Assembly (NCBI RefSeq): GCF_017052585.1
Contig: NZ_JAFFHZ010000001.1
Location: forward strand, 3,633,501 to 3,697,500
Source: Paenibacillus apiarius
Lineage (GTDB): Bacteria; Bacillota; Bacilli; Paenibacillales; Paenibacillaceae
Length of the DNA: 64,000 nt
Direction of reading: 5' to 3'
Part shown: in pieces, positions 1,004-14,634 of the stretch
Layout: each line of letters opens with the position of its first letter
How positions within the stretch are numbered: the first letter of the stretch is position 1
Notes under the pieces: model-generated
The model's input: only the letters and a program-made list of their open reading frames with translations
What the model was told of the DNA's origin: nothing
The model's database searches: none
Translations under genes and position numbers: made by a program

Positions 1004-2044
1004 ATGAAGAAATGGACGGCAACGCTGCTTATCGGCGCCATGCTGACGGTTGTGGGCTGCTCCTCCGGTTCGTCCGGCGCGGAAGGGGGCGATTCGGGCG
1101 GAGCCGGCACCGAGCCAAATATCGGGGTTGCGATTTATAAGTTCGACGATACGTTCATGACCGGTGTGCGCAATGCAATTACGGAAGCGGCAAACGGCAA
1201 GGCGAAGGTCGATATCGTAGACAGCCAAAATTCACAACCGACTCAGAATGACAAGATCGATTTGTTCATTACGAAAAAAGTGGATGCGCTTGTGATCAAT
1301 CCGGTCGATCGAACCGCGGCTGGAGTCATGATCGACAAGGCGAAGGCGGCCGACATTCCGGTCGTATTTCTGAACCGTGAACCGCTGCCGGAAGATATGA
1401 AGAAGTGGGATAAAGTGTATTATGTCGGTGCCAAGGCGGAAGAATCCGGCACTATTTCAGGCCAGCTCATCGTCGATTATTGGAAGGCCAATCCAGACGC
1501 GGATAAGAACAAGGACGGCGTGCTTCAATACGTCATGCTTAAGGGGGAGCCGGGCCACCAAGATGCGGAGCTGCGCACGAAGTACTCCGTTCAGGCGCTT
1601 GAGGATGCGGGCATTAAGGTGGAGAAGGTGGCGGAAGACACCGGCATGTGGGATCGCGTGAAAGGCCAAGAGAAAATGGCGGCGTTCCTTGCCGCTCACG
1701 GCGACAAAATTGAAGCGGTGCTTGCGAACAACGATGACATGGCGCTTGGCGCTGTTGAGGCGCTGAAGGCAGCGGGATATTTTACGGGCGGCAAGAAGAA
1801 GATGCCGGTCGTCGGGGTCGATGCGACCGCTCCGGCTCTCCAAGCGCTCAAGGACGGCACGATGCTTGGCACGGTGTTGAACGACGCCAAGAACCAAGGG
1901 AAGGCGGCGCTGAATCTGGCCGCTGTATTGGCGAAGGGGGAAGTCCCGAACAAAGACAGCAGCGGATATGATCTGACGGACGGCAAGTTTGTCTGGATTC
2001 CGTATAAAAAGATTACAAAGGACAACATCGATGACGCCCAATAG
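1004..2044 (+). CDS. mglB: Galactose/methyl-galactoside-type ABC transporter substrate-binding lipoprotein
   Basis: Periplasmic-binding-protein type 1 fold lipoprotein that captures a sugar for the MglAC transporter. The ATG at 1004 is chosen because the AAAGGGAGG site ends at 994, directly against the alternative TTG at 995. The signal peptide ends in a VVGC lipobox with Cys19 as the lipidated residue. Family features include the NIGVAIYKFDDTF opening strand, the DALVINPVDR segment, VVFLNREP and LANNDDMALGAVEAL, all typical of MglB rather than RbsB. The length of 346 residues fits. It is followed by mglA after 28 bp and mglC. The sugar is most likely galactose, glucose or a methyl-galactoside; binding-site residues were not modelled. 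Confidence 0.88.
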   Translation: MKKWTATLLIGAMLTVVGCSSGSSGAEGGDSGGAGTEPNIGVAIYKFDDTFMTGVRNAITEAANGKAKVDIVDSQNSQPTQNDKIDLFITKKVDALVINPVDRTAAGVMIDKAKAADIPVVFLNREPLPEDMKKWDKVYYVGAKAEESGTISGQLIVDYWKANPDADKNKDGVLQYVMLKGEPGHQDAELRTKYSVQALEDAGIKVEKVAEDTGMWDRVKGQEKMAAFLAAHGDKIEAVLANNDDMALGAVEALKAAGYFTGGKKKMPVVGVDATAPALQALKDGTMLGTVLNDAKNQGKAALNLAAVLAKGEVPNKDSSGYDLTDGKFVWIPYKKITKDNIDDAQ

Positions 2045-2072
2045 ACCTTTCCCCGCGAACGGAGGCACATCA

Positions 2073-3593
2073 TTGAATAACGAACCCTATTTGTTGGAAA
2101 TGAACAGCATCTCGAAGCAATTTCCGGGGATCAGAGCGCTTGACCAAGTTACGCTCAAGGTGCGCGCGGGAACGGTACATGCGCTTATGGGGGAGAATGG
2201 AGCGGGCAAGTCGACACTCATGAAATGTTTGTTCGGCATTTATCAGCCTGATGAAGGAGACATCGTCTTGCAGGGGCAAAAGGTAAGCATTATGGATTCG
2301 AAAAATGCGCTCAAGCTCGGCATCTCGATGATTCATCAGGAGCTGCATCCAGTTCCGCATCGCAATGTAATGGAGAATATTTGGCTCGGGCGATTTCCGA
2401 TGAAGGGGATCGGTCCGTTCAAAATCGTTGACGAGAAGACGATGCTGCAGGATACAGAGCGGCTGATGGCTGATCTTGGCATGAACATCGCGCCGTTAGT
2501 TCGAGTCGGAAGCTTGTCCGTATCCAAAATTCAAGCGCTTGAAATTGCGAAGGCAGTCTCCTTTCAGTCTAAAATCATTGTCATGGATGAACCGACCTCA
2601 TCGTTAACGGGCAATGAGGTGGAGCAGTTGTTTACGATTATCGAGCAGCTTAAGCGGCAGGGCGTGGCCATTATTTATATTTCTCATAAAATGGAAGAAA
2701 TTTTACGCATTTCCGATGAGGTTACGATTATGCGGGACGGCAGGCATATCGGCACTTGGCCGGCGCATGAAATGACGACCGATCTCATTATTTCAAGGAT
2801 GGTCGGACGGGAGTTGACGGAGCGGTTCCCGGAGCGGAGCAATGTGCCGGGCGAAGTCATTCTGCGCGTCGACGGATTGACATCACCGCTTCCAAAATCA
2901 TTCCAGCATGTCAGCTTCGAGCTGAGGCGAGGAGAAATATTGGGGGTGGGCGGGCTCGTCGGCGCGCAGCGGACCGAGTTGCTTGAAGCGCTGTTCGGCT
3001 TGCGCCCCGTGCAATCCGGCACACTCGCCCTTCACGGCAAGCCTGTGCGCATCCGCTCGCCATTCGATGCCAAGAAGCACCGCATGGCCTTGCTGACGGA
3101 GGAGCGGAGGGTGACAGGGATTTTTCCGGTGCTGTCCGTCATGGAAAACACGGTTATCGCGAATCAAGCCCAATATGTTGCTCCGTATGGGTTATTGAAT
3201 GACAAGAAGCGAAGAGCGGACGTAGCGCGGAGCGTCGAAATGCTGCGCGTAAAGACCCCATCGATAGGCACGCTCATTCAGAACTTGTCTGGGGGTAATC
3301 AGCAGAAGGTGCTGTTGGCGAGGTGGCTGCTCACCGATCCTGAAATTTTGCTGCTGGATGAACCAACCCGCGGGATCGATGTCGGCGCAAAATACGAAAT
3401 CTATTCCATCATTGCCGAACTGGCGCAGCAGGGCAAGAGCATTATTATGATCTCTTCCGAAATGCCCGAGCTGCTGGGCATGTCCGATCGCATCATGGTC
3501 ATGTGCGAGGGAAGATGTTCCGGAATTATCGATGGGAAGCAGGCTACCGAAGAAGAGATTATGCGTCTTGCTGCCCAGCATGCCGCACACTGA
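2073..3593 (+). CDS. mglA: Sugar ABC transporter ATP-binding protein (two fused nucleotide-binding domains)
   Basis: Energises sugar import at the inner face of the membrane. The TTG at 2073 sits 7 bp after GGAGG (2061-2065); an in-frame ATG at 2031 would overlap mglB and lacks a good site. The 506-residue protein has two ABC domains. The first has Walker A GENGAGKST (residues 40-48), a relaxed LSVSKIQ signature and Walker B IIVMDEPTSSLT. The second has a degenerate P-loop (VGGLVGAQRTE) but an intact LSGGNQQKV signature and LLLDEPTRGIDVG, the normal asymmetry of MglA/RbsA/XylG proteins. It lies between its binding protein and permease genes. Confidence 0.92.
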   Translation: MNNEPYLLEMNSISKQFPGIRALDQVTLKVRAGTVHALMGENGAGKSTLMKCLFGIYQPDEGDIVLQGQKVSIMDSKNALKLGISMIHQELHPVPHRNVMENIWLGRFPMKGIGPFKIVDEKTMLQDTERLMADLGMNIAPLVRVGSLSVSKIQALEIAKAVSFQSKIIVMDEPTSSLTGNEVEQLFTIIEQLKRQGVAIIYISHKMEEILRISDEVTIMRDGRHIGTWPAHEMTTDLIISRMVGRELTERFPERSNVPGEVILRVDGLTSPLPKSFQHVSFELRRGEILGVGGLVGAQRTELLEALFGLRPVQSGTLALHGKPVRIRSPFDAKKHRMALLTEERRVTGIFPVLSVMENTVIANQAQYVAPYGLLNDKKRRADVARSVEMLRVKTPSIGTLIQNLSGGNQQKVLLARWLLTDPEILLLDEPTRGIDVGAKYEIYSIIAELAQQGKSIIMISSEMPELLGMSDRIMVMCEGRCSGIIDGKQATEEEIMRLAAQHAAH

Positions 3594-3606
3594 AGGAGGA
3601 CATATT

Positions 3607-4620
3607 ATGACCCGCATCAAAAATGCACAGCAGTTCGCGTCACAACATGCGATATACATCGTACTGCTCCTGTTAGTTGTGGGCATTGCTTTCTGGGACC
3701 CGAGATTTCTGTCCGTAACGACAATTCGCGATATATTCCTGCAATCGTCTACGCGGGCGATTATTGCGCTGGGAGCGGCTTTTATTCTCATTACCGGCGG
3801 AGTCGACCTGTCCGCAGGGCGCGTCGTCGGCTTGACGGCGGTTCTGTCGGCCTCAATGCTGCAATTGTCCGAGTATCCCCGCAAATTTTTCCCCGATTTG
3901 CAGCAGCTTCCGCTTTGGGTTCCGGTCCTGTTGGCCATTGCGGCAGGGCTTATCGTCGGGCTAATCAATGGTTTTATCGTGTCGAAGTTCAGTGTGCCGC
4001 CGTTTATCGCCACGCTTGGCACGATGGTTGCGGTGTATGGGCTCAACTCAATTTATTTCGATATGGAGCCGAATCAATCGCAGCCTATCGGCGGATTGCG
4101 CGAGGACTTCAGCCGCCTCGGAACCGGCTACATCGGACCGAACGGGCCGTACTCCGTGCCGTATATCGTCATCATCGCGATTGCGGTCGCGCTGCTCGTC
4201 TGGATTGTATTCAACAAGACGCGGCTCGGCAAGAACATGTACGCCATCGGCGGCAACATACAGGCGGCGAAGGTGTCCGGCATTAACGTCAGCCGCAATT
4301 TAATCGCGATCTATGCCATTGCCGGCGCGCTATACGGCTTGGCCGGGGTGCTGGAAGCGGCGCGCACGGGCGGAGCGACGAACAACTACGGGAATATGTA
4401 TGAACTTGACGCCATTGCAGCCTGCGTCGTGGGAGGCGTATCGACCTCGGGCGGCATCGGTACCGTGCCCGGCATTATGGCGGGCGTGCTCATCTTTGGA
4501 GTCATTAATTACGGTCTGACCTTCATCGGTGTCAATCCGTATTGGCAGCTTATTATTAAAGGGCTTATCATTGTATTGGCCGTCGCATTCGATATGCGCA
4601 AATACGTCTCCAAAAAATAA
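3607..4620 (+). CDS. mglC: Sugar ABC transporter permease
   Basis: Membrane channel of the MglBAC importer. The ATG at 3607 follows AAGGAGGA with good spacing; longer in-frame starts lie inside mglA. The 337 residues hold about nine hydrophobic segments and BPD_transp_2 family marks such as ALGAAFILITGGVDLSAGR near the N-terminus, GNIQAAKVSGIN and the VVGGVSTSGGIGTVPG loop. It is the last gene of the operon and is closed by a strong terminator. Confidence 0.92.
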   Translation: MTRIKNAQQFASQHAIYIVLLLLVVGIAFWDPRFLSVTTIRDIFLQSSTRAIIALGAAFILITGGVDLSAGRVVGLTAVLSASMLQLSEYPRKFFPDLQQLPLWVPVLLAIAAGLIVGLINGFIVSKFSVPPFIATLGTMVAVYGLNSIYFDMEPNQSQPIGGLREDFSRLGTGYIGPNGPYSVPYIVIIAIAVALLVWIVFNKTRLGKNMYAIGGNIQAAKVSGINVSRNLIAIYAIAGALYGLAGVLEAARTGGATNNYGNMYELDAIAACVVGGVSTSGGIGTVPGIMAGVLIFGVINYGLTFIGVNPYWQLIIKGLIIVLAVAFDMRKYVSKK

Positions 4621-4622
4621 TG

Positions 4623-4650
4623 AACCGGGGGCAGAGCCCCCGGTTTCTTT
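4623..4650 (+). terminator. Terminator of the mglBAC operon
   Basis: A 10-bp GC-rich perfect stem (4623-4632 with 4636-4645) has an AGA loop and is followed by TTCTTTG. It begins two bases after the mglC stop codon. Confidence 0.9.
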
Positions 4651-4901: not shown

Positions 4902-4929
4902 TTGATCTTTCTTCGGCATCGTTTATAAT
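4902..4929 (+). promoter_or_regulatory. Sigma-A promoter of the IclR-type gene
   Basis: The -35 TTGATC (4902-4907) and the -10 TATAAT (4924-4929) are separated by 16 bp. Transcription would start near 4936, about 75 bp before the chosen start codon. Confidence 0.6.
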
Positions 4930-5012: not shown

Positions 5013-5774
5013 GTGTCACTCAAGACGCTGGCCAAATCGCTCGAATTGCTCGATTGCTTTACATCGGATCATCCGATATGGGGGGTGCGTGATTTAGCGA
5101 AGAAGCTGGGAATGCACCATTCGGTCGCGCATCGCATCGTATCGACGTTTGAACAGCACGGCATTCTAGTTCAGAACAAAGACACGCAGAAGTACCATCT
5201 CGGCTTGAAGCTGCTGGAATACGGGAAAGTCATCACCGATCAGCTCAACATTCAGCAGTATTTTCAGCCAATATTGAAGGAGATTGCGAATTCAACCGGG
5301 GAGTCGGTCTACCTGAATATGCTGGAAGGGAAGGAGGGCGTCTGCGTATCCATCGTCCTCAGCTCGAAGGACATTCAATATTTGATTCCGGTTGGCGACC
5401 GTTCGCCGCTGTATGCCGGAGCTTCCCAGAAGGTCATGATGGCGTATGTATCTGCGGAGCTTCAGGAAGAAATTATTCAGGAGGGGTTGACGTCCGTCAC
5501 TTCCCGAACGATTACCGATCCGCTGCGCTTGCGGGCCCAATTGGCGCAGATCAAAGAGGAAGGCTGGTGCATCTCTGTCGGTGAATATACGGAAGACGTG
5601 GTAGGCATTTCCGTACCGATGCTGGATAGTCATAGACGTATACTGGGCTCCATTACGATTGCAGGACCGGGATACCGGATTGACGAAGCGCGGTGCGAAT
5701 CCTATTTGCGCCTCTTGCTCAACCAAGTCCCTTTAATACGGCAAAGCTGCAATATTATATCGCATATGTGGTAG
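5013..5774 (+). CDS. IclR-family transcriptional regulator
   Basis: Likely local regulator of the downstream transporter and catabolic cluster. The GTG at 5013 is preferred because AGAGGTGAGG precedes it, although close; the TTG at 4980 has no ribosome-binding site. The product of 253 residues has an N-terminal winged helix (WGVRDLAKKLGMHHSVAHRIVSTFE) and a C-terminal effector domain (SVYLNMLEGKEGVCV, PLYAGASQKVMMAY, EDVVGISVPM). IclR proteins bind small acids or related metabolites and commonly sit next to the catabolic operon they control. The effector is unknown. Confidence 0.9.
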   Translation: MSLKTLAKSLELLDCFTSDHPIWGVRDLAKKLGMHHSVAHRIVSTFEQHGILVQNKDTQKYHLGLKLLEYGKVITDQLNIQQYFQPILKEIANSTGESVYLNMLEGKEGVCVSIVLSSKDIQYLIPVGDRSPLYAGASQKVMMAYVSAELQEEIIQEGLTSVTSRTITDPLRLRAQLAQIKEEGWCISVGEYTEDVVGISVPMLDSHRRILGSITIAGPGYRIDEARCESYLRLLLNQVPLIRQSCNIISHMW

Positions 5775-5848
5775 CCAGGCTTCACATTTTTACACAGCAA
5801 TACTTTATTTAACTAACGAGATACCGCTTTAAAGAGGGAGGGGTTGCA

Positions 5849-6859
5849 TTGCTACAATTCATTACTCGACGTCTGTTATACCTCATACCAAGCTTGCTCG
5901 GCATCGTGCTCATCACGTTTATCCTGTCAAGAGTGCTGCCGGGCGATCCTGCCTTGATGATAGCCGGAGAACAAGCGCCGCAGCACGTGGTGGAAAATAT
6001 TCGTGCTCAGCTTGGGTTGAACGATCCGCTGTATGTGCAGTTTGGCGCTTATATAAAGCAGCTGTCGCAAGGGGATCTTGGCGTGGCTTGGCACACAGGG
6101 CATACGGTGCTGGAGGATTTCGCCGTCCGTCTGCCTGCCACGATCGAGCTTGGCTTTGTCAGTCTGCTTATCGCGTTATTGGTAGCCATCCCGGTAGGCA
6201 TCGTGGCCGCTACTAAGAAAGAATCGATAGTGGATCATATCTCCCGCATTTTTTCGCTTATCGGCGCCTGCATGCCGGTCTTTTGGCTCGGACTGCTTCT
6301 CATCTTGTTTTTCTACTCCAAGCTTGGCATTGCGCCTGCTCCAATGGGCCGTATCGGCGGAGACATCCTCCCGCCAACGCATATTACCGGATTATATCTT
6401 GTAGACAGCTTGCTTACTGCCGATTGGGTGGCGTTCAAGCAATCATTATCTCATCTTCTTCTCCCGGCGATTTGCCTTAGCGCCGGCACGATGGCCATTA
6501 TCGCCCGCATGATGCGCTCCAGCATGCTGGAGGTTATCGGTCAGGATTATATCCGGACTGCCAGAGCAAAAGGCTTGAATGAGCGTTCCGTCGTCTACAA
6601 GCACGCTTTGGTCAATGCTTCGATACCGACGGTTACGATGATCGGTTTGCAAATCGGCTATCTGCTCGGAGGCGCGGTCATCACGGAGACCATCTTTGCT
6701 TGGCCCGGCGTCGGAAGCTATGTTACGGAATCCATTTTGGCGACGGATTACGCCCCGATTCAGGCGTTTACGCTGCTAAGCGCCGTCGTGTATAGCTGTA
6801 TCAATTTGCTTGTCGATATGGTGTATGGCTTAATCGACCCGCGCATTCGCTATGAATAA
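5849..6859 (+). CDS. dppB: Peptide-type ABC transporter permease (DppB/OppB family)
   Basis: First permease subunit of a dipeptide/oligopeptide/nickel-type importer. A TTG start at 5849 lies 5 bp after AGGGAGGGG. The protein (336 aa) has the classic N-terminus RRLLYLIPSLLGIVLITF, RVLPGDPA, and the EAA loop region around residues 225-245 (EVIGQDYIRTARAKGL). Six hydrophobic segments are apparent. It opens an operon that runs without a clear terminator through the AroM-family gene at 14570. Confidence 0.92.
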   Translation: MLQFITRRLLYLIPSLLGIVLITFILSRVLPGDPALMIAGEQAPQHVVENIRAQLGLNDPLYVQFGAYIKQLSQGDLGVAWHTGHTVLEDFAVRLPATIELGFVSLLIALLVAIPVGIVAATKKESIVDHISRIFSLIGACMPVFWLGLLLILFFYSKLGIAPAPMGRIGGDILPPTHITGLYLVDSLLTADWVAFKQSLSHLLLPAICLSAGTMAIIARMMRSSMLEVIGQDYIRTARAKGLNERSVVYKHALVNASIPTVTMIGLQIGYLLGGAVITETIFAWPGVGSYVTESILATDYAPIQAFTLLSAVVYSCINLLVDMVYGLIDPRIRYE

Positions 6860-6897
6860 TCAATCTCTCATGTCATGACATCTTAGGAGGTGCAACT

Positions 6898-7821
6898 GTG
6901 ATGAAAGCATCAACCTCATCGTCCGCTGCAATAGCTGCGGCGAGCGAACCGTCCATGCTGCAGGAGGCTTGGTTTGCGCTGCGGCAGTGGAGCAAGCTGT
7001 TCCTCCGCAACAAGCTTGCCGCGCTCGGCCTCTTCCTGATCGTGTTATGGACGCTCTTTGCCATTGCCGCGCCGCTTGTCGCGCCTTATGCGCCGGATGC
7101 TACGCAGCTGGAAGCGAAGCTGCAGGGTCCGAGCGGAACGCATTGGTTCGGAACGGACCAGTTCGGCCGGGACATTTTCAGCCGTGTCGTATACGCAGCG
7201 CGCATATCGATTTGGACCGGGCTTATCGCCGTCGGAATTTCCTTCTTCATCGGCGTTCCGCTCGGCGGCATCGCCGCTTATTATGGCGGCTGGATCGGGA
7301 ATCTCATCATGCGCGTAATGGACATTTTTCTTGCGTTTCCTTCGCTTATTCTGGCGATGGCTATCGCAGCCGCCATGGGTCCTGGCCTCATTAGCGCGAT
7401 GATGGCGGTAGGGATCGTCGGCATTCCGGAGTTCGCCCGTCTCATGTATAGCCAGACAATCTACTTGAAGGAACGCGAATTCGTGGAGGCGAGCCGTTCC
7501 ATCGGGGTGAAGGATAGCGCCATTCTTGTCAGGCATATTTTCCCGAACGCGCTGGCTCCGCTGCTTGTCCGCATTACGCTCGGGATGGGCTTTGCCATTT
7601 TGACGGCAGCGAGCTTGAGCTTTCTCGGCCTTGGCGTTCGACCGCCGCTTGCGGAATGGGGGGCGATGATATCCGAAGGACGCGAGTACATTATTACCGG
7701 CGAATGGTGGCTCGTTACGTTCCCGGGGCTTGCCATAGCAACGACAATACTCGGTTTCAACCTGCTCGGCGACGGGCTGCGCGACGTGCTTGACCCGCGG
7801 CTTCGCACGAGCCGCAAATAA
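6898..7821 (+). CDS. dppC: Peptide-type ABC transporter permease (DppC/OppC family)
   Basis: Second permease of the importer, 307 aa. TAGGAGG at 6884-6890 serves either the GTG at 6898 or the adjoining ATG at 6901. Family marks are the extended N-terminus, HWFGTDQFGRDIFSRVVY near residues 81-98, an EAA loop (EFVEASRSIGVKDSAI) and FLGLGVRPPLAEWG. It follows dppB by 38 bp and precedes the binding-protein gene. Confidence 0.92.
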   Translation: MMKASTSSSAAIAAASEPSMLQEAWFALRQWSKLFLRNKLAALGLFLIVLWTLFAIAAPLVAPYAPDATQLEAKLQGPSGTHWFGTDQFGRDIFSRVVYAARISIWTGLIAVGISFFIGVPLGGIAAYYGGWIGNLIMRVMDIFLAFPSLILAMAIAAAMGPGLISAMMAVGIVGIPEFARLMYSQTIYLKEREFVEASRSIGVKDSAILVRHIFPNALAPLLVRITLGMGFAILTAASLSFLGLGVRPPLAEWGAMISEGREYIITGEWWLVTFPGLAIATTILGFNLLGDGLRDVLDPRLRTSRK

Positions 7822-7859
7822 GCAATGATTCCAGTTTGAACATCCAGGGGGAGGAAAAA

Positions 7860-9473
7860 ATGATGAAACGAAGCAACTTGATGATGGCCATTGCATTGAC
7901 GCTCATTTTGACTTTGGTTGCGGGCTGCGCGCCAAAGGCGAATCAAGCCGGAGGAGAGAGCTCTGCCGGCGCAACGGGAGAACAAACGAATGCGCCTGCG
8001 AATGGCGCCGGCGGCAAGACGCTGACCGTCGCATATTCCGAAGGCGGGCAGACGCTCGATCCGGCGGAAGCGAACGATCTGACTTCTGATACATTGGTGC
8101 TGTCCACCTATGATCAGCTCGTAACGTATGGCGTCAAAAATGTAGATGGCGCGGATATCGCTGCCACGGAAGAAATCAAGCCGATGCTGGCCGAGTCGTG
8201 GGACGTATCCGATGACCAGAAGACGTATACGTTCAAGCTGCGCAAGGACGTGAAGTTCCATAGCGGCAATCCGCTGAATGCCGATGCGGTCGTGTTCTCG
8301 CTCGATCATATCAAAAACTCGAACTCGGGCGGATTTTTGTATCAGCAGGCTTCTATCGAGTCGTTCCGCAAGGTGGATGATAATACGGTGGAAGTGAAGC
8401 TGGAGCGTCCGAACCATATGTTTTTGCAAATCTTGGCGATGTACTCCTTCTCGGTCATCGATCCGCAAGCGATAGAAGGGGATGCGAATGAGTTCTTGAA
8501 GACGAAGACGGCCGGTTCCGGTCCGTTCAAGCTTGAAAAATGGGATCCTTCCTCCGAAGCTGTGTTCGTAGCGAACGACAATTACTGGCAGGAGCGGGCC
8601 AAGCTGGACAAAGTTGTCATGAAGTTCATGAAGGAAGCATCGTCCCGCACGATGCTGCTGAACAAAGGCGACATTGATCTGGCCATGGAAATTCCGCCGA
8701 AGGATGTCGATACGCTGAAGCAGAACAGCGGGCTGACTGTACGTTCGGATGCGAGCAACCGCATTTTGTATATGGGTCTGAACAATAATGTGAAGCCGTT
8801 CGACAATCCGAAGGTGCGTCAAGCGATCGGATATGCGATTCCGCATGAATTGCTCTTGAAGGACGTCATGTACGGACAAGCCAAGCAAATGAAGAGCATC
8901 GTGGCAAGCAATACGCCTGGTTTCTCCGATAAGGGCTATGTGTATGAATATAACTTGGACAAAGCGAAACAACTGCTGAAGGAAGCAGGCTACGAGGATG
9001 GCTTCCAGTTCGATTTCACGCTGGGCTCCGGCTTTAAAGACTGGGAAGACGCCGCTACGGTCATTCAAGCAGAGTTGAAGAAGATCGGCGTCACGATGAA
9101 CATCAACAAGTTGGCGCGCGCGCAGTTCCTGGAACAGCTTCGCACCGGCAACGTGCAGGCATTCATGTCGAAATGGACCTCGTTCGTCAATGATCCGGAA
9201 TATCATCTTGGGTTCTTGGTGGATAGCGAAAGCTCGTCCAACTATGTGCATTACAACAATGCGAAGGTGAATGAGCTGCTGAAGGAAGCAGCCGTCGAGA
9301 CGGACATGACGAAGCGCAACGGAATGTACGAAGAGATCCAAAGCTTTATTAATACGGACATGCCTTACGTGTACATGTACGAATATAACCGCCTCGTGGC
9401 ATTTAAGAACAACGTGAAAGGTTATATTTTCTTCCCGGATGAATGCTTGCGTTTTTACCCGATTTCAAAATAA
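7860..9473 (+). CDS. dppA: Peptide-type ABC transporter substrate-binding lipoprotein (DppA/OppA, SBP_bac_5)
   Basis: Captures the substrate outside the membrane. The ATG at 7860 lies 7 bp after GGGGGAGG; the TTG at 7836 is upstream of that site. The signal peptide ends with LVAGC, the lipobox. The mature protein carries the SBP_bac_5 signature LAESWDVSDDQKTYTFKLRK and DVKFHSGNPLNADAVVFSLD. The family takes dipeptides, oligopeptides, nickel chelates, opines and N-acylated amino acids, so the fold does not name the ligand. The adjacent deacylase argues for a peptide or acyl-amino-acid substrate. Confidence 0.9.
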   Translation: MMKRSNLMMAIALTLILTLVAGCAPKANQAGGESSAGATGEQTNAPANGAGGKTLTVAYSEGGQTLDPAEANDLTSDTLVLSTYDQLVTYGVKNVDGADIAATEEIKPMLAESWDVSDDQKTYTFKLRKDVKFHSGNPLNADAVVFSLDHIKNSNSGGFLYQQASIESFRKVDDNTVEVKLERPNHMFLQILAMYSFSVIDPQAIEGDANEFLKTKTAGSGPFKLEKWDPSSEAVFVANDNYWQERAKLDKVVMKFMKEASSRTMLLNKGDIDLAMEIPPKDVDTLKQNSGLTVRSDASNRILYMGLNNNVKPFDNPKVRQAIGYAIPHELLLKDVMYGQAKQMKSIVASNTPGFSDKGYVYEYNLDKAKQLLKEAGYEDGFQFDFTLGSGFKDWEDAATVIQAELKKIGVTMNINKLARAQFLEQLRTGNVQAFMSKWTSFVNDPEYHLGFLVDSESSSNYVHYNNAKVNELLKEAAVETDMTKRNGMYEEIQSFINTDMPYVYMYEYNRLVAFKNNVKGYIFFPDECLRFYPISK

Positions 9474-9518
9474 GAGATAGAGATTGCAACGGATATGGAT
9501 AAACAGGAGGGGATTGCG

Positions 9519-10778
9519 GTGAACGAATGGAAGCAACGCTGGTTAGACGAAGTGGAACAACGCAGAGACGAATTGCTGGGCTTGTGCTCGAAGCTCATTC
9601 AATTCCCAACAGAGAATCCTCCCGGGGACTCGCGTGAAATCAGTCAATTCATTATCGACTACTTGGCAGAGGTCGGCATAGAGACGAAGGTGCATGACGC
9701 AGGCGATAATATGCTGAATCTAATTGCGACGATCGGCGATGAAGCCGCTTCGGATCGCCATCTAATCTATTGCGGCCATACAGATGTCGTGCCGGCAGGC
9801 GACCGTTCCCGCTGGAATTTCGACCCGTTCTGTGGCGAGGTGCGGGACGGATATGTGCTTGGACGCGGGGCGAGCGATATGAAATGCGGTTTGGCGGGAC
9901 TTATTTTCAGCGTAAAGCTGCTGAAGGAACTGCAAGTTCCGCTTCAAGGCAGACTGTCGCTGCTTATCGTGCCGGATGAGGAAACCGGCGGCCACCTCGG
10001 CGTGCCGTGGGTATTCGAACGGAAGCTCATTCATGGCACGGCGGCGGTCATTGCCGAGCCGTCGCATCCGCTGCATCCGACAATCGGGCAGAAGGGCAGC
10101 TGCTGGTTCAACTTCACGGTGACGGGAACGCCGGGACACGGCAGCTTGTCTCCGCTGCTCGGAGACAATGCGATTATGAAGGCGGCCGCAGCCGTTCAGG
10201 CGCTGCAGCAGCTGCATCACTATCCGGTGGAGCTGCCGAATGAAGTGAAGGACATTATCGAAGTGACGAAGCGCTATATCGCGGAAAAAGAAAATGCAGA
10301 TTTCTCCGCCATCATCGACCGCGTGTCGGTCAATGTAGGCCTCATCGAAGGCGGAACGAAGACGAACGTCGTGCCTGACCGCTGTACGGTCAGTGTCGAT
10401 ACGCGCCTGCCGTTCGGAGTCGAACCAAGCCAAGTGCTGGCCGAGGCGAAGCGGCTGCTCTCCGAGATCGGCATTGAGACGGAGCTTCACCCTGAAGGCT
10501 TCCAAGGATTGGCCAACTGGACGCCGCCGACCGATCCGATCGTGGAGGAGCTTGTGCAGCATATATGCGACGTGAAGCAGGAAGAAGGATACGGAGTATT
10601 GCAATGGGCTTCCAGCGATGCGCGGCATTTCCGCCGCGCCGGCATTCCGGTGCTGCAATACGGTCCGGCAGAGCTGTCCACGATACACGGCTTCAACGAA
10701 AAAGCTCCGGTGCAGGATGTGGTGGATGCAGCCAAGGTGTATGCGTTGACCGCGCTCAGCTACTTGGGTGGTGAGTAA
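9519..10778 (+). CDS. M20-family metallopeptidase/deacylase (ArgE/DapE/ACY1 type)
   Basis: Predicted cytosolic zinc hydrolase that would cleave the imported compound. The GTG at 9519 is 6 bp after AGGAGGGG; the ATG at 9495 has no site. The 419 residues contain the two-metal centre: [10 protein letters not shown] (His near residue 87), [10 protein letters not shown] (bridging Asp), catalytic PDEETGG, a later EPS metal ligand and a C-terminal HGFNEKAPV histidine. A dimerisation lid is present around [18 protein letters not shown]20 members remove acyl groups or split dipeptides; substrate preference cannot be read. Its stop codon is one base before the dppD ATG, so the two are translationally close. 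Confidence 0.88.
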
Positions 10779-10779
10779 A

Positions 10780-11760
10780 ATGGAACCGGTGCTGCAAGTC
10801 GAACAGCTGGAAACAGAGTTTGTTACGAACGGGGGCGTCTTCAAGGCGGTGGACGGCGTAAGCTTCCATGTGCACCAAGGAGAAACGCTCGGCGTTGTCG
10901 GCGAATCGGGCTGCGGCAAGAGTGTAACCTCGTTGTCCATCATGGGACTCCTGCCGAAGAAGATCGGGCGGGTGAAGGGAGGGCGCATTCAATTTCATGG
11001 AAGCGACCTGCTGAATGTCCCGGAGAAGCAGATGAGGTCCATTCGCGGCAATCGCATCGCTATGATTTTTCAGGAGCCGATGACTTCGCTCAATCCGGTA
11101 TTCCGTATCGGCGATCAATTGGCGGAGGCCATCCAGCTTCACATGCAGCTGAAGCGCAAGGAGGCGATGAGGCATGCCGTCGACATGCTGCGCAAGGTCG
11201 GCATCCCTCATCCCGAGTCGGTGGCGCAGGAATATCCGCACCAGCTCTCGGGCGGAATGCGGCAGCGGGTCATGATAGCGATGGCGATGTCCTGCAATCC
11301 CGAGGTGCTGATCGCCGATGAGCCGACGACGGCGCTTGACGTGACGATTCAAGCGCAAATTTTGGATTTGATGCGCCAGCTGCAGGAAGAAGAGAAGACG
11401 TCAATCCTGCTCATTACCCACGACCTCGGGGTCGTCGCGGAGATGTGCCACCGCGTGGTTGTCATGTACGCGGGGCAGGTCGTAGAGGAGGCGGATGTGG
11501 ACACGCTGTTCGAATCGCCTCAGCATCCATATACGCAGGGGCTGCTGTCATCGCTGCCGCAGCTTGCCGGAGAGCAGGAGCGGCTGGAATCGATACCCGG
11601 CACGGTGCCGAGCCCGCTTAATATGCCGCCAGGCTGCCGCTTCGCGCCGCGCTGCAAATATCGCGTGGAAGCGTGCGAACAAGTGCAGCCCGGGCTGACG
11701 GATTTGGGAGATGGGCACCGTTGCCGTTGTCTGCTCGTTGAGAAGGGGGTGGCGCGATGA
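10780..11760 (+). CDS. dppD: Peptide-type ABC transporter ATP-binding protein (DppD/OppD)
   Basis: One of the two ATPases of the importer. The ATG at 10780 is preferred; in-frame GTG codons at 10768 and 10771 would overlap the deacylase gene. Motifs are Walker A GESGCGKS, signature LSGGMRQRV, Walker [12 protein letters not shown] and the H-loop [12 protein letters not shown]. The C-terminal oligopeptide-transporter tail ([17 protein letters not shown] and a later HRCRC) holds several conserved cysteines. In a related mycobacterial DppD such cysteines bind an iron-sulfur cluster, as I recall. It overlaps dppF by four bases (ATGA). Confidence 0.92.
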
Positions 11761-12719
11761 CTGCGTTGCTGCAAGTGCGCAATCTAAAAAAGCATTATCC
11801 GATTCGCCAAGGACTGCTTAATAAACAGGTCGGTTCCGTGAAGTCGGTGGATGGCTTGAACTTCGACATATATGAAGGAGAGACGTTCGGCATCGTCGGC
11901 GAATCGGGCTGCGGCAAATCGACGACCGGCCGCTCGGTCTTGCGCTTGATTGAACCGACGGAAGGCGAAGTATGGTTTCAAGGACGCAACATTATGCAGC
12001 TTGGTCCGAAGGAGCTGCGCCTGTTGCGTCCCGAGATGAGCATGATCTTTCAAGATCCTTATGCATCGCTGAATCCGCGCTGGACCGTTCAGCGCATCTT
12101 GGAGGAGCCGCTTCAGACGCATCAATCGATGCGAACGGCGGAGCGCAAGCAGCGCGTGCAGGAGCTGATGGAGCGGGTGGGGCTGTCCGCATTTCAAGCG
12201 AACCGCTTCCCGCACGAATTTTCCGGAGGCCAGCGTCAGCGCGTCGGCATCGCCCGTGCCTTGGCGCTGAATCCGAAGTTCATTGTCTGCGACGAGCCGG
12301 TCTCGGCGCTAGACGTATCGATTCAGTCACAGGTGCTGAACTTGATGCAGGATCTGCAGGAGCAATCGAAGCTGACCTATATGTTTATTTCTCACGACTT
12401 ATCGGTCGTCAAGTTTTTGTGCACCCGCGTCGGCGTCATGTATCTTGGAAAAATGGTGGAGCTGGCGCCGAAGCGCAAGCTGTATGCCAATCCGTTGCAT
12501 CCATATACGAAGGCGCTCATGTCGGCCGTGCCTGTGCCGAATCCGAAGGCGAAGAAGGAGCGCATCGTGCTGACGGGCGAGGTGCCAAGCGCCAAGAACC
12601 CTCCCCAAGGCTGCGCCTTTCATCTCCGTTGCCCGATAGCGACGGAGCATTGCCGGAGCGTGCAGCCGGAGTGGCGGGAGGCTGATGAAGAACATTGGGT
12701 GGCTTGCCACAATTTATAA
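11757..12719 (+). CDS. dppF: Peptide-type ABC transporter ATP-binding protein (DppF/OppF)
   Basis: Second ATPase of the importer, 320 aa, starting inside the dppD stop codon. Motifs are [41 protein letters not shown] and [12 protein letters not shown]. The tail [15 protein letters not shown] repeats the cysteine-rich C-terminal domain of peptide-transporter ATPases. After the stop codon there is a small hairpin and then the DUF1177 gene. Confidence 0.92.
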
Positions 12720-12723
12720 TGCC

Positions 12724-12742
12724 TGCACGGTGGCCCCGTGCA
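12724..12742 (+). other. Intra-operon hairpin without a T tract
   Basis: A perfect 7-bp stem (12724-12730 with 12736-12742) encloses a 5-base loop. It starts right after the dppF stop codon and has no T run, so it is more likely an RNA-stability or processing element than a terminator. Confidence 0.5.
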
Positions 12743-12790
12743 AGGCCAATACGGACATCTATGATATCGAGCTGAAAGGGAGAGAAAATC

Positions 12791-13738
12791 ATGGCTTTAC
12801 TGCAAACGTTGCAAATATATGAAGCGGTAGACAATGCATTTACATCCGGCGAAGCGGTGAAGGAGCTGTTCAAGCCTTACCCGCTTGCTGACGTAAGTGT
12901 GCAGCGCGTTCATGGGGAAAAGGGATTTACAGATTTCATCCGCATCTTCATCCCGGGAACGGAAGGCAAGAGTCAGGGCGGACAAACGCCGAGCTTCGGT
13001 ATTGTCGGACGGCTGGGCGGACTGGGTGCGCGGCCGCAGCGCATCGGACTCGTCTCCGATGGCGACGGCGCAATTGCGGCGTTGGCGGCTGCGTTGAAGC
13101 TTGCCGACATGAGCGGGAAGGGTGACCGGTTGAAAGGGGATGTGTATATTACGACCCATGTATGCCCGGACGCACCGACCTTGCCGCATGAACCGGTTGA
13201 TTTCATGGATTCGCCCGTCGATATTGCGACGATGAACGAATACGAGGTGCTGGAAGAGATGGAAGCCATTTTGTCCATCGATACGACAAAAGGCAACCGT
13301 GTCATCAACCATAAAGGGATTGCCATTTCCCCGACGGTGAAAGAGGGCTACATCATGCGCATTAGCGATGATTTACTTCGGATTATGGAGATGACGACCG
13401 GACAGCATCCGGTCACGTTCCCGATTACGATGCAAGACATTACTCCATACGGCAACGGGCTGTATCACATTAACAGCATCTTGCAGCCTTGCGTGACGAC
13501 CGCCGCCCCGGTTGTAGGCGTCGCGATTACGGCACAGTCTACTGTACCGGGCTGTGGTACGGGAGCCAGCCATGAAGTGGATATTGCCTTGGCTGCTCGC
13601 TTCGCGGTGGAGGTAGCCAAGGAATTCACGAATGAAGTCTGTTCCTTCTATAATAAAGACGAGTTCGAGCACATGTTGAATTTATATGGACCGATGAATG
13701 CCCTGCAGACGCTGGGCAGACCGTTAGCGGAGGTCTAG
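12791..13738 (+). CDS. DUF1177-family protein
   Basis: Protein of 315 residues recognised as DUF1177 from its overall sequence; its biochemical role is not established. The start follows AAAGGGAGAG. Conspicuous conserved-looking blocks are FGIVGRLGGLGARPQRIGLV, a DGDGAIAALAAALKLADM segment, ITTHVCPDAPTLPHEPVDFM rich in potential metal ligands (His, Cys, Asp, His), NHKGIAISPTVKEGYI and GCGTGASHEVDIALAARF. The layout loosely recalls metallo-aminopeptidases with a carrier-type fold, but this is speculative. It is linked to the dpp/M20 genes and precedes the AroM-family gene. Confidence 0.8.
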   Translation: MALLQTLQIYEAVDNAFTSGEAVKELFKPYPLADVSVQRVHGEKGFTDFIRIFIPGTEGKSQGGQTPSFGIVGRLGGLGARPQRIGLVSDGDGAIAALAAALKLADMSGKGDRLKGDVYITTHVCPDAPTLPHEPVDFMDSPVDIATMNEYEVLEEMEAILSIDTTKGNRVINHKGIAISPTVKEGYIMRISDDLLRIMEMTTGQHPVTFPITMQDITPYGNGLYHINSILQPCVTTAAPVVGVAITAQSTVPGCGTGASHEVDIALAARFAVEVAKEFTNEVCSFYNKDEFEHMLNLYGPMNALQTLGRPLAEV

Positions 13739-13758
13739 GACAAAGCGGCCGTTCAACG

Positions 13759-13814
13759 ATCGGCAATTGGAGTTCGGCATCGGCATTCTGCATTCTACAG
13801 TCGGCATTCGGCCC
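13759..13814 (+). repeat. Short imperfect tandem repeats of TCGGCATT type
   Basis: The spacer between the DUF1177 and AroM-family genes carries several imperfect copies of TCGGCATTC or CGGCAATT. No promoter or terminator is recognised in this 127-bp gap, so the operon may continue through it. Confidence 0.4.
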
Positions 13815-13865
13815 AAGCGCTAAGTCGTCTCATATAGGCTCATGATGGGGAAAGGAGAGATTCGG

Positions 13866-14570
13866 ATGGAACGAAGCGATAGTTGGCAAGGCGTGAAAAT
13901 AGGGCTCATTACGATAGGTCAAGCGCCACGAACGGATGTGCAGCCGCTAATCGAGCGTTGGTTGGCCCCTTGCGCAGATGTGCTGCAAGTCGGCGTCTTA
14001 GACGGTATGACGCTGGCGCAGATTGAACGCGAGCTTGGCCCGCAGCGAGGCGAGTTCGTGCTGACGACGCGGCTGGCCGACGGTGAAGCTGTCGTCTTGT
14101 CCGCGGCGAAAACGGAAGAAGCCATGCAGCGCTTGATCGACGAATGTGAACGGAACGGCTGTCAAGTGATCGTCCTGCTCTGCACCGGAGCGTTCCGCAA
14201 TCTCGGCACTGAACGGGCCTTGTTGATTGAACCTGAACGTGTGCTGACTCCTGCTATTGCGAAGCTGGCGGGCAGGACTCCGCTTGGGCTTATTATTCCG
14301 CTTGCGGAGCAGGCAGAGGAGATGCGCCGGAAATGGGGAGCCTTCGACGCGGCGATTACGACAGCCGCGGCTTCCCCCTATACGGCAACGAGCGGGCAGA
14401 TCGCGGCGGCGGCACAGGAATTGAGAGCTGCGGGCGCCGGAATTATCGTGCTCGATTGCATGGGATACACGTTAGAACACCAATATATCGCCAGAGAGGC
14501 GAGCGGATGCTTCGTGCTGCTGTCGAGCAGCTTGCTGTTCAAACTGTTGACTGAGCTATGCGAGCTTTAA
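13866..14570 (+). CDS. AroM-family protein with two racemase-like cysteines
   Basis: 234 residues; the ATG at 13866 is 7 bp after AAAGGAGA, which rules out the ATG at 13842. The sequence matches the AroM family, named after an E. coli gene next to aroL whose function is not established. It opens with GLITIGQAPRTDV and carries VLLCTGAF (Cys106) and IIVLDCMGY (Cys198), each at the end of a predicted beta strand. Two such cysteines are the catalytic acid-base pair of cofactor-independent Asp/Glu/hydantoin racemases; assigning that chemistry here is inference. Being last in a transport and deacylation operon, it may invert or otherwise process the released amino acid. Confidence 0.82.
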   Translation: MERSDSWQGVKIGLITIGQAPRTDVQPLIERWLAPCADVLQVGVLDGMTLAQIERELGPQRGEFVLTTRLADGEAVVLSAAKTEEAMQRLIDECERNGCQVIVLLCTGAFRNLGTERALLIEPERVLTPAIAKLAGRTPLGLIIPLAEQAEEMRRKWGAFDAAITTAAASPYTATSGQIAAAAQELRAAGAGIIVLDCMGYTLEHQYIAREASGCFVLLSSSLLFKLLTELCEL

Positions 14571-14584
14571 ATCTATAAGAGTCG

Positions 14585-14634
14585 AATACCGCCTGTTGTT
14601 TGCCGGGAGCAAGCAGCGGGCGGTATTTTATTTT
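14585..14634 (+). terminator. Terminator of the dpp-M20-DUF1177-AroM operon
   Basis: A 9-bp perfect outer stem (14585-14593 with 14619-14627) with inner pairing is followed by TTATTTTG. Confidence 0.8.

Follow-up and report, generated by a model that had tools for sequence, protein, structure and literature searches.

What does a bacterium take up and break down with an operon that joins a dipeptide-type ATP-binding cassette (ABC) importer and an M20-family amide hydrolase to proteins of two uncharacterised families, DUF1177 and AroM? Such an operon lies in the 6.58 Mb genome of Paenibacillus apiarius, within a 64,000 nt stretch of contig NZ_JAFFHZ010000001.1 (positions 3,633,501 to 3,697,500, forward strand) that was analysed as a whole and is called here the window. 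We conclude that this eight-gene operon, with an IclR gene in front, is real, conserved, catabolic and uncharacterised. DUF1177 and AroM form a constant pair, around which importers and accompanying hydrolases vary, and our tentative reading is that the operon imports and dismantles a ring-closed or epimerised dipeptide, most probably a cyclic dipeptide (2,5-diketopiperazine, DKP).

The operon and its recurrence

All genes of the operon described in the first-pass annotation were recovered on the + strand at the same coordinates, from the list of open reading frames (ORFs) and with Pfam models. The locus is composed as follows.

4902..4929, +, promoter-like match TTGATC-16-TATAAT, 5' of the IclR gene (10/12 consensus positions; a consensus match only)
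5013..5774, +, IclR-family regulator (PF01614 128.7 bits, PF09339 47 bits; the ORF opens at TTG 4980, GTG 5013 being an alternative start)
5849..6859, +, DppB/OppB-type permease (BPD_transp_1)
6898..7821, +, DppC/OppC-type permease (BPD_transp_1)
7860..9473, +, family-5 solute-binding protein with a lipoprotein-like N-terminus (SBP_bac_5; the ORF opens at 7836)
9495..10778, +, predicted M20 amide hydrolase of the ArgE/DapE family (Peptidase_M20 and M20_dimer; TIGR01910)
10768..11760, +, DppD-type ATPase (ABC_tran and oligo_HPY)
11757..12719, +, DppF-type ATPase (ABC_tran and oligo_HPY)
12791..13738, +, DUF1177 protein, predicted di-zinc peptidase fold with an apparently non-canonical site (PF06675)
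13868..14570, +, AroM protein, predicted two-cysteine racemase/isomerase fold (PF07302, NF007788; the ORF opens at 13842)
14584..14628, +, terminator-like hairpin of 20 pairs with a T-rich tail (stem scan)

From the IclR gene through the AroM gene, the spacings given by the ORF coordinates are 74, 38, 14, 21, −11, −4, 71 and 103 bases, the M20/dppD and dppD/dppF junctions being overlapping. For AroM, the start at 13868, which is preceded by a GGAG-type site, is preferable to that at 13842. Coordinates, Pfam matches and the hairpin at 14584-14628 bear out the earlier description of eight one-strand genes with tight or overlapping junctions, one terminator and a linked IclR regulator, as well as the location of the M20 gene inside the transporter genes, between the binding-protein gene and dppD. 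The signal scan of the window gave 14 terminator-like sites (mean of 10.2 in shuffled sequence) and 12 promoter-like sites (8.5 in shuffled sequence), so that among the signals the long 20-pair stem alone is good evidence. A second hairpin (4622-4646) lies 3' of the gene preceding the operon. Just upstream, at 1989-4620, two genes judged from their translations to encode a permease and a two-domain ABC ATPase of sugar type end before this hairpin; they look separate from the operon.

The identical nine-gene order, from IclR to AroM, is present in the surveyed loci L002, L003, L004, L044 and L058 and on a plasmid of P. guangzhouensis. Since it recurs in other genomes and on a plasmid, the arrangement is not due to chance. 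The view of the locus as an import-and-catabolism operon is supported. The DUF1177 protein of the window shares 98% identity with its Paenibacillus profundus counterpart, and a DUF1177 gene was found in 7 of the 19 Paenibacillus genomes examined, which makes it an accessory trait of the genus.

The DUF1177-AroM pair

The pairing was followed in two samples, i.e. the best 80 loci of 185 DUF1177 relatives in named genomes and 299 evenly drawn Bacillota genomes. Of the latter, 33 have DUF1177 and 30 were read as regions, namely all but G145, G215 and the genome of the window itself, giving 110 loci in total, 109 of them distinct (L118 is the same as L015). These loci are phylogenetically non-independent. 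AroM was counted within 1.2 kb of DUF1177 in the named loci, and importers within 9 kb on the same strand.

AroM was found next to DUF1177 in 78/80 named loci, and a peptide importer, either Dpp permeases or OPT, in 77/80. Among the 299 Bacillota genomes, AroM is present in 28 at E < 1e-40 (32 with any match); both genes occur in 24 genomes, in 21 of which they lie within 3 kb of each other (Fisher p = 4e-24, without correction for relatedness); DUF1177 occurs without AroM in 9 and AroM without DUF1177 in 4. Of the 30 Bacillota regions, 19 have AroM close to DUF1177, 18 contain an importer and 15 an M20, M29-like or PepE gene. The pair extends to the haloarchaeon Salinigranum, where the two genes are adjacent and accompanied by a Dpp-type importer, DUF917, an annotated aminopeptidase, an Asp/Glu racemase and an aspartoacylase-family gene.

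Two side observations concern the immediate neighbours of DUF1177. A protein of about 280 residues, with no Pfam match above cut-off, is encoded directly 3' of DUF1177 and before AroM in L111 (6155-7000), L114 (10204-11028), L119 (8422-9282), L121 (8725-9561) and L140 (1969-2829), and also in L123 (10520-11362), where no AroM was found. Seven loci (L128, L129, L130, L132, L134, L135, L136) have DUF1177 without AroM in surroundings of other kinds: RNase HII and MatE genes, a CofD gene, or a flanking pair of ABC ATPase genes with branched-chain-type permeases and an aldehyde ferredoxin oxidoreductase nearby. They hint at a second role of the family.

The AroM protein of the window matches PF07302 with 229.9 bits (cut-off 23.8) and NF007788 with 223.8 bits (cut-off 198). 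Its computed fold is predicted to be that of the Asp/Glu/hydantoin racemase superfamily, the closest structural matches being hydantoin racemase and OpaE, followed by arylmalonate decarboxylase and Asp/Glu racemases, all within about 1-2 Z units. C114 and C206, presumably the two catalytic cysteines of the superfamily, are conserved in 98/98 sequences; for such counts, sequences with stops or of less than 80% length were dropped, which kept 110, 98 and 32. By sequence, the similarity of AroM to this superfamily (with hydantoin racemase 2eq5 and arylmalonate decarboxylase) is marginal (E = 0.006), and AroM has its own families, PF07302 and NF007788.

The DUF1177 protein covers positions 2-271 of the 272 of PF06675 (451.2 bits, cut-off 25). 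The fold computed for it is of the di-zinc peptidase type (M20/M28/M17/M42), i.e. aminopeptidase-like. It shares this predicted fold without a significant sequence relation or recognisable canonical motifs: the DUF1177 profile gave no significant relation to M20, M42, M29-like or DUF917 alignments, and the search of solved structures yielded matches at chance level only. A classical metallopeptidase therefore seemed unlikely for DUF1177. Residues Arg74, His123, Cys125, Asp164 and Cys255 are instead conserved in at least 90% of the sequences (the register is inferred) and, judged from secondary-structure register and not by superposition, DUF1177 seems to keep two Asp, the His, Glu and His ligands being apparently replaced.

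Towards more distant relatives, AroM is mostly about 39-50% identical and DUF1177 66-76%. AroM changes faster, as if it might be adapting to the substrate.

The first-pass annotation had taken both families to be without assigned function. This stands as regards experiments, none of which assigns a function to either family in the open-licence literature searched, where DUF1177 is named once in the material available (PMC4738358). It does not stand for the structure of AroM, whose racemase-like predicted fold has already been published (PMC11055893).

Exchangeable importers and hydrolases

Dpp permeases are present at 44/110 DUF1177 loci and OPT importers at 52/110. DUF917 proteins, found at 42/110 loci, go with OPT (38/52 OPT loci versus 4/58 others). 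In Enterobacterales, PepE occurs at 10/15 loci, in the order IclR-OPT-DUF1177-AroM-PepE-racemase (e.g. L047, L060); this cluster PepE is 70% identical to the solved aspartyl dipeptidase 1fy2, with the key residues kept. Anywhere in the named loci, M20 or PepE is found in 45/80 and an M29-like gene in 59/80, and S9 and M18 peptidase genes are also found at some loci. Among the families modelled, L065, L068, L069 and L080 have the minimal form IclR-OPT-DUF1177-AroM. Importer and accompanying hydrolase thus differ between lineages around a retained DUF1177-AroM pair, an argument for assigning the chemically special steps to that pair.

The M20 enzyme of the window meets the ArgE/DapE model TIGR01910 (261.2 bits, cut-off 217.6), and H95, D128, E162, E163 and E188, which we take to form its metal site, are present in 32/32 sequences. 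A window-type M20 gene stands directly 3' of a window-type binding-protein gene in 33/33 cases with room to see it; this count covers binding proteins with a hidden Markov model (HMM) score above 600, includes one duplicate and excludes L048, by hand, and four with too little sequence. With the lower-scoring binding proteins, M20 follows the ATPase genes in L071 and L125, another M20-family gene is present in L126 and L131, and neither is found in L120 and L123. M20 genes occur at 17/110 loci within 9 kb on the same strand and, without those limits, at 35/80 named and 4/30 Bacillota loci. The window type is found at 0/52 OPT-type loci, the M20-family gene near the OPT locus L114 being of another subfamily, and M20 as the core enzyme was rejected on this count. 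The 33/33 linkage indicates that M20 goes with this Dpp importer and not with DUF1177-AroM as such. The neighbourhood survey proposed earlier confirmed a strong link between DUF1177 and AroM, with Dpp at part of the loci, and tied M20 to the importer. The order proposed with it, M20 first and then DUF1177 and AroM on the product, is unlikely as a general one, because the pair also occurs with an OPT importer only, in the four minimal loci, or with PepE or the M29-like gene where M20 is missing. It is more likely that the unusual chemistry falls to the pair and that a peptidase completes the breakdown.

Like E. coli DppABCDF, the window set has all five subunit types, with Dpp/Opp-like transporter subunits by family models and a family-5 binding protein. 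Unlike DppA, this binding protein has, by alignment, Phe in the column of Asp408 and Lys in that of Arg355, two residues that are presumably the ligand anchors of DppA (Asp408 for the ammonium group), and it scores 216.5 bits against the DppA equivalog cut-off of 1005. Asp occupies the Asp408 column in 0/45 binding proteins compared (L048 among these belongs to a different operon on the opposite strand). In the same genome, taken as a control, Asp is present in only 2 of 14 readable family-5 binding proteins, the window's included (4 more of 18 end short of the column), so that its absence is a weak argument, and it was not relied on to judge whether the importer is an ordinary one for dipeptides.

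Three plasmids carry related sets. On P. guangzhouensis plasmid NZ_CP045294.1 (44.7 kb; L233, 1021-10713), the nine-gene set of the window is immediately adjacent to phage tail genes, which suggests that the operon moves with a phage-like plasmid. In a Klebsiella pneumoniae strain from cattle faeces, a plasmid typed as conjugative (L234, 4559-9966) has IclR-OPT-DUF1177-AroM-PepE-racemase between transposase genes, which looks like a portable catabolic cassette. On a Planococcus plasmid (L235, 3706-16605) DUF1177 is surrounded by genes for DUF917, hydantoinase/oxoprolinase and proteins of the cytosine-permease and aminopeptidase P types, and the (incomplete) gene table lists no AroM; this is the best hint for a hydantoin-like substrate.

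Candidate substrates and significance

From gene order, families, pairing and exchangeable partners, we infer a plausible mechanism for the operon. The binding protein and DppBCDF would bring in a compound that resists normal peptidases owing to ring closure or an inverted centre. AroM, predicted to be a two-cysteine isomerase, would convert it to a cleavable form by inversion at the alpha-carbon, and DUF1177, with its altered site, would open the ring or cut an unusual amide. The resulting dipeptide would be cleaved by M20, or elsewhere perhaps by PepE, the M29-like enzyme, S9 or M18. The signal for IclR would be the compound or a product. Cyclic dipeptides are the best fit, since they connect the peptide importers and peptidases of the surveyed loci with the racemases and cyclodipeptide oxidase (CDO)-like genes. 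Aspartyl rings are the first candidates, owing to PepE in most Enterobacterales sets and to the ring specificity of Paenibacillus chibensis, which reportedly hydrolyses cyclo(Asp-Phe) and cyclo(Asp-Asp) and none of nine other rings tested (PMC3852281). That work used resting cells and crude extracts and, in the parts available, speaks of unknown enzymes. One sequenced strain of P. chibensis carries an OPT-DUF917-DUF1177-AroM cluster (L016). No gene for bacterial cyclic-dipeptide hydrolysis is named in the part of the open-licence literature searched, an absence that is no proof. That DUF1177 is this missing hydrolase of bacteria and archaea and AroM a dedicated ring epimerase, together a portable core that takes varied importers and peptidases and moves on plasmids, is a bolder proposal which we consider doubtful.

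Several observations weigh against a cyclic dipeptide. Added cyclic dipeptides did not raise the activity of P. chibensis DSM 329 (PMC3852281), and this strain need not be the sequenced one or identical with NBRC 15958. Both CDO-like subunits are present at just 10/110 loci (HMMs from these loci; PF19585 confirmed on one representative), and CDOB occurs in 9/299 Bacillota genomes, only 2 of them near DUF1177 (G045, G215); CDO as a general marker was therefore rejected. The genome of the window has no match to DUF917 (PF06032), OPT or CDOB (PF19585; no control genome matched in that scan, while the same model finds the 9 Bacillota genomes), so that only relatives connect the operon with cyclic dipeptides. 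The M29-like neighbour, the commonest of peptidase type, matches the ring-cleaving 2,5-dihydroxypyridine 5,6-dioxygenase (32 bits) slightly better than the aminopeptidase PepS (23 bits) among solved structures and may not be a peptidase; if it is of the dioxygenase type, the peptide argument rests on fewer loci. In DUF1177 the classical di-zinc ligands, with their HxD and Glu-Glu motifs, were not recognisable, and M20 enzymes of the ArgE/DapE type are usually deacylases. The pairing itself has exceptions: 4/28 genomes with a strong AroM lack DUF1177, 12/110 DUF1177 loci have no AroM, some in quite different surroundings, and in the control sets E. coli has AroM without a DUF1177 match. Finally, DUF917, the cluster racemase and the Planococcus hydantoinase/oxoprolinase genes fit hydantoins at least as well.

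The latter points define a serious rival, which we think rather unlikely, in which the substrate is a five-membered cyclic ureide, i.e. a thiohydantoin or a hydantoin that is substituted or peptidyl. Its epimerisation would fall to AroM and the hydantoin-type racemase and its ring opening to DUF1177 (elsewhere DUF917), after which M20 would hydrolyse the N-carbamoyl product. DUF917 is related to the NCBIfam thiohydantoin desulfurases (276 bits, under the cut-off of 440), and the cluster racemase is closest to 2eq5, named hydantoin racemase (219 bits). Related CN_hydrolase genes, of a family that includes D-carbamoylases, are present at L114 and L120 (the L114 copy was scanned). Andreas and Giessen propose hydantoin or allantoin metabolism or secondary metabolites for clusters of this kind (PMC11055893). 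The constant peptide importers, PepE, S9 and M18 are, however, not readily explained by a ureide, no carbamoylase is named among the 25 listed of the 53 NCBIfam matches of the window's M20, and the DUF917 part of the scheme is missing from the window's genome.

Salvage of D-amino-acid or isoaspartyl peptides, in which linear D- or iso-peptides from aged protein or peptidoglycan would be cut by DUF1177 and M20 and AroM would racemise the freed D-amino acid, is unlikely. The Asp/Glu racemase fold predicted for AroM, the aminopeptidase-like fold predicted for DUF1177, the peptide importers, PepE and an acidic-residue theme agree with it. Against this, the top structural matches of AroM, with hydantoin racemase and OpaE first within their narrow spread, disfavour free amino acids, no peptidoglycan-recycling family was found among the neighbour proteins scanned (representatives only), and the binding protein lacks the ammonium anchor of DppA (a weak point). 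An ordinary importer of dipeptides or N-acyl amino acids, with M20 acting first and DUF1177 and AroM in side roles, would account for the Dpp/Opp-like subunits and the 33/33 linkage of M20, and is improbable given the DppA equivalog score, the window-type M20 missing from OPT-type loci as a common step and, weakly, the Asp408 column.

The gene neighbourhood of the pair is partly known already. CDO-like clusters without cyclodipeptide synthases carry AroM, DUF917, hydantoin-type racemase, Dpp, OPT, EamA and peptidase genes together, as in the DUF1177 loci (Andreas and Giessen 2024, PMC11055893); DUF1177 is not named in the main text, and no shared DUF1177-AroM core is proposed there. The present analysis adds the constant association of DUF1177 with AroM, the fold predicted for DUF1177, the minimal forms, the exchangeable parts and the CDO-free Dpp-M20 form of the window.

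Cyclic dipeptides commonly occur as signals, as toxins and as by-products in food. An example for DKP breakdown is cyclo(Asp-Phe), a bitter by-product of aspartame (PMC3852281). If the reading of the operon as a route for cyclic dipeptides is true, two families as yet uncharacterised would acquire functions, and a tool for breaking down DKPs would be gained.

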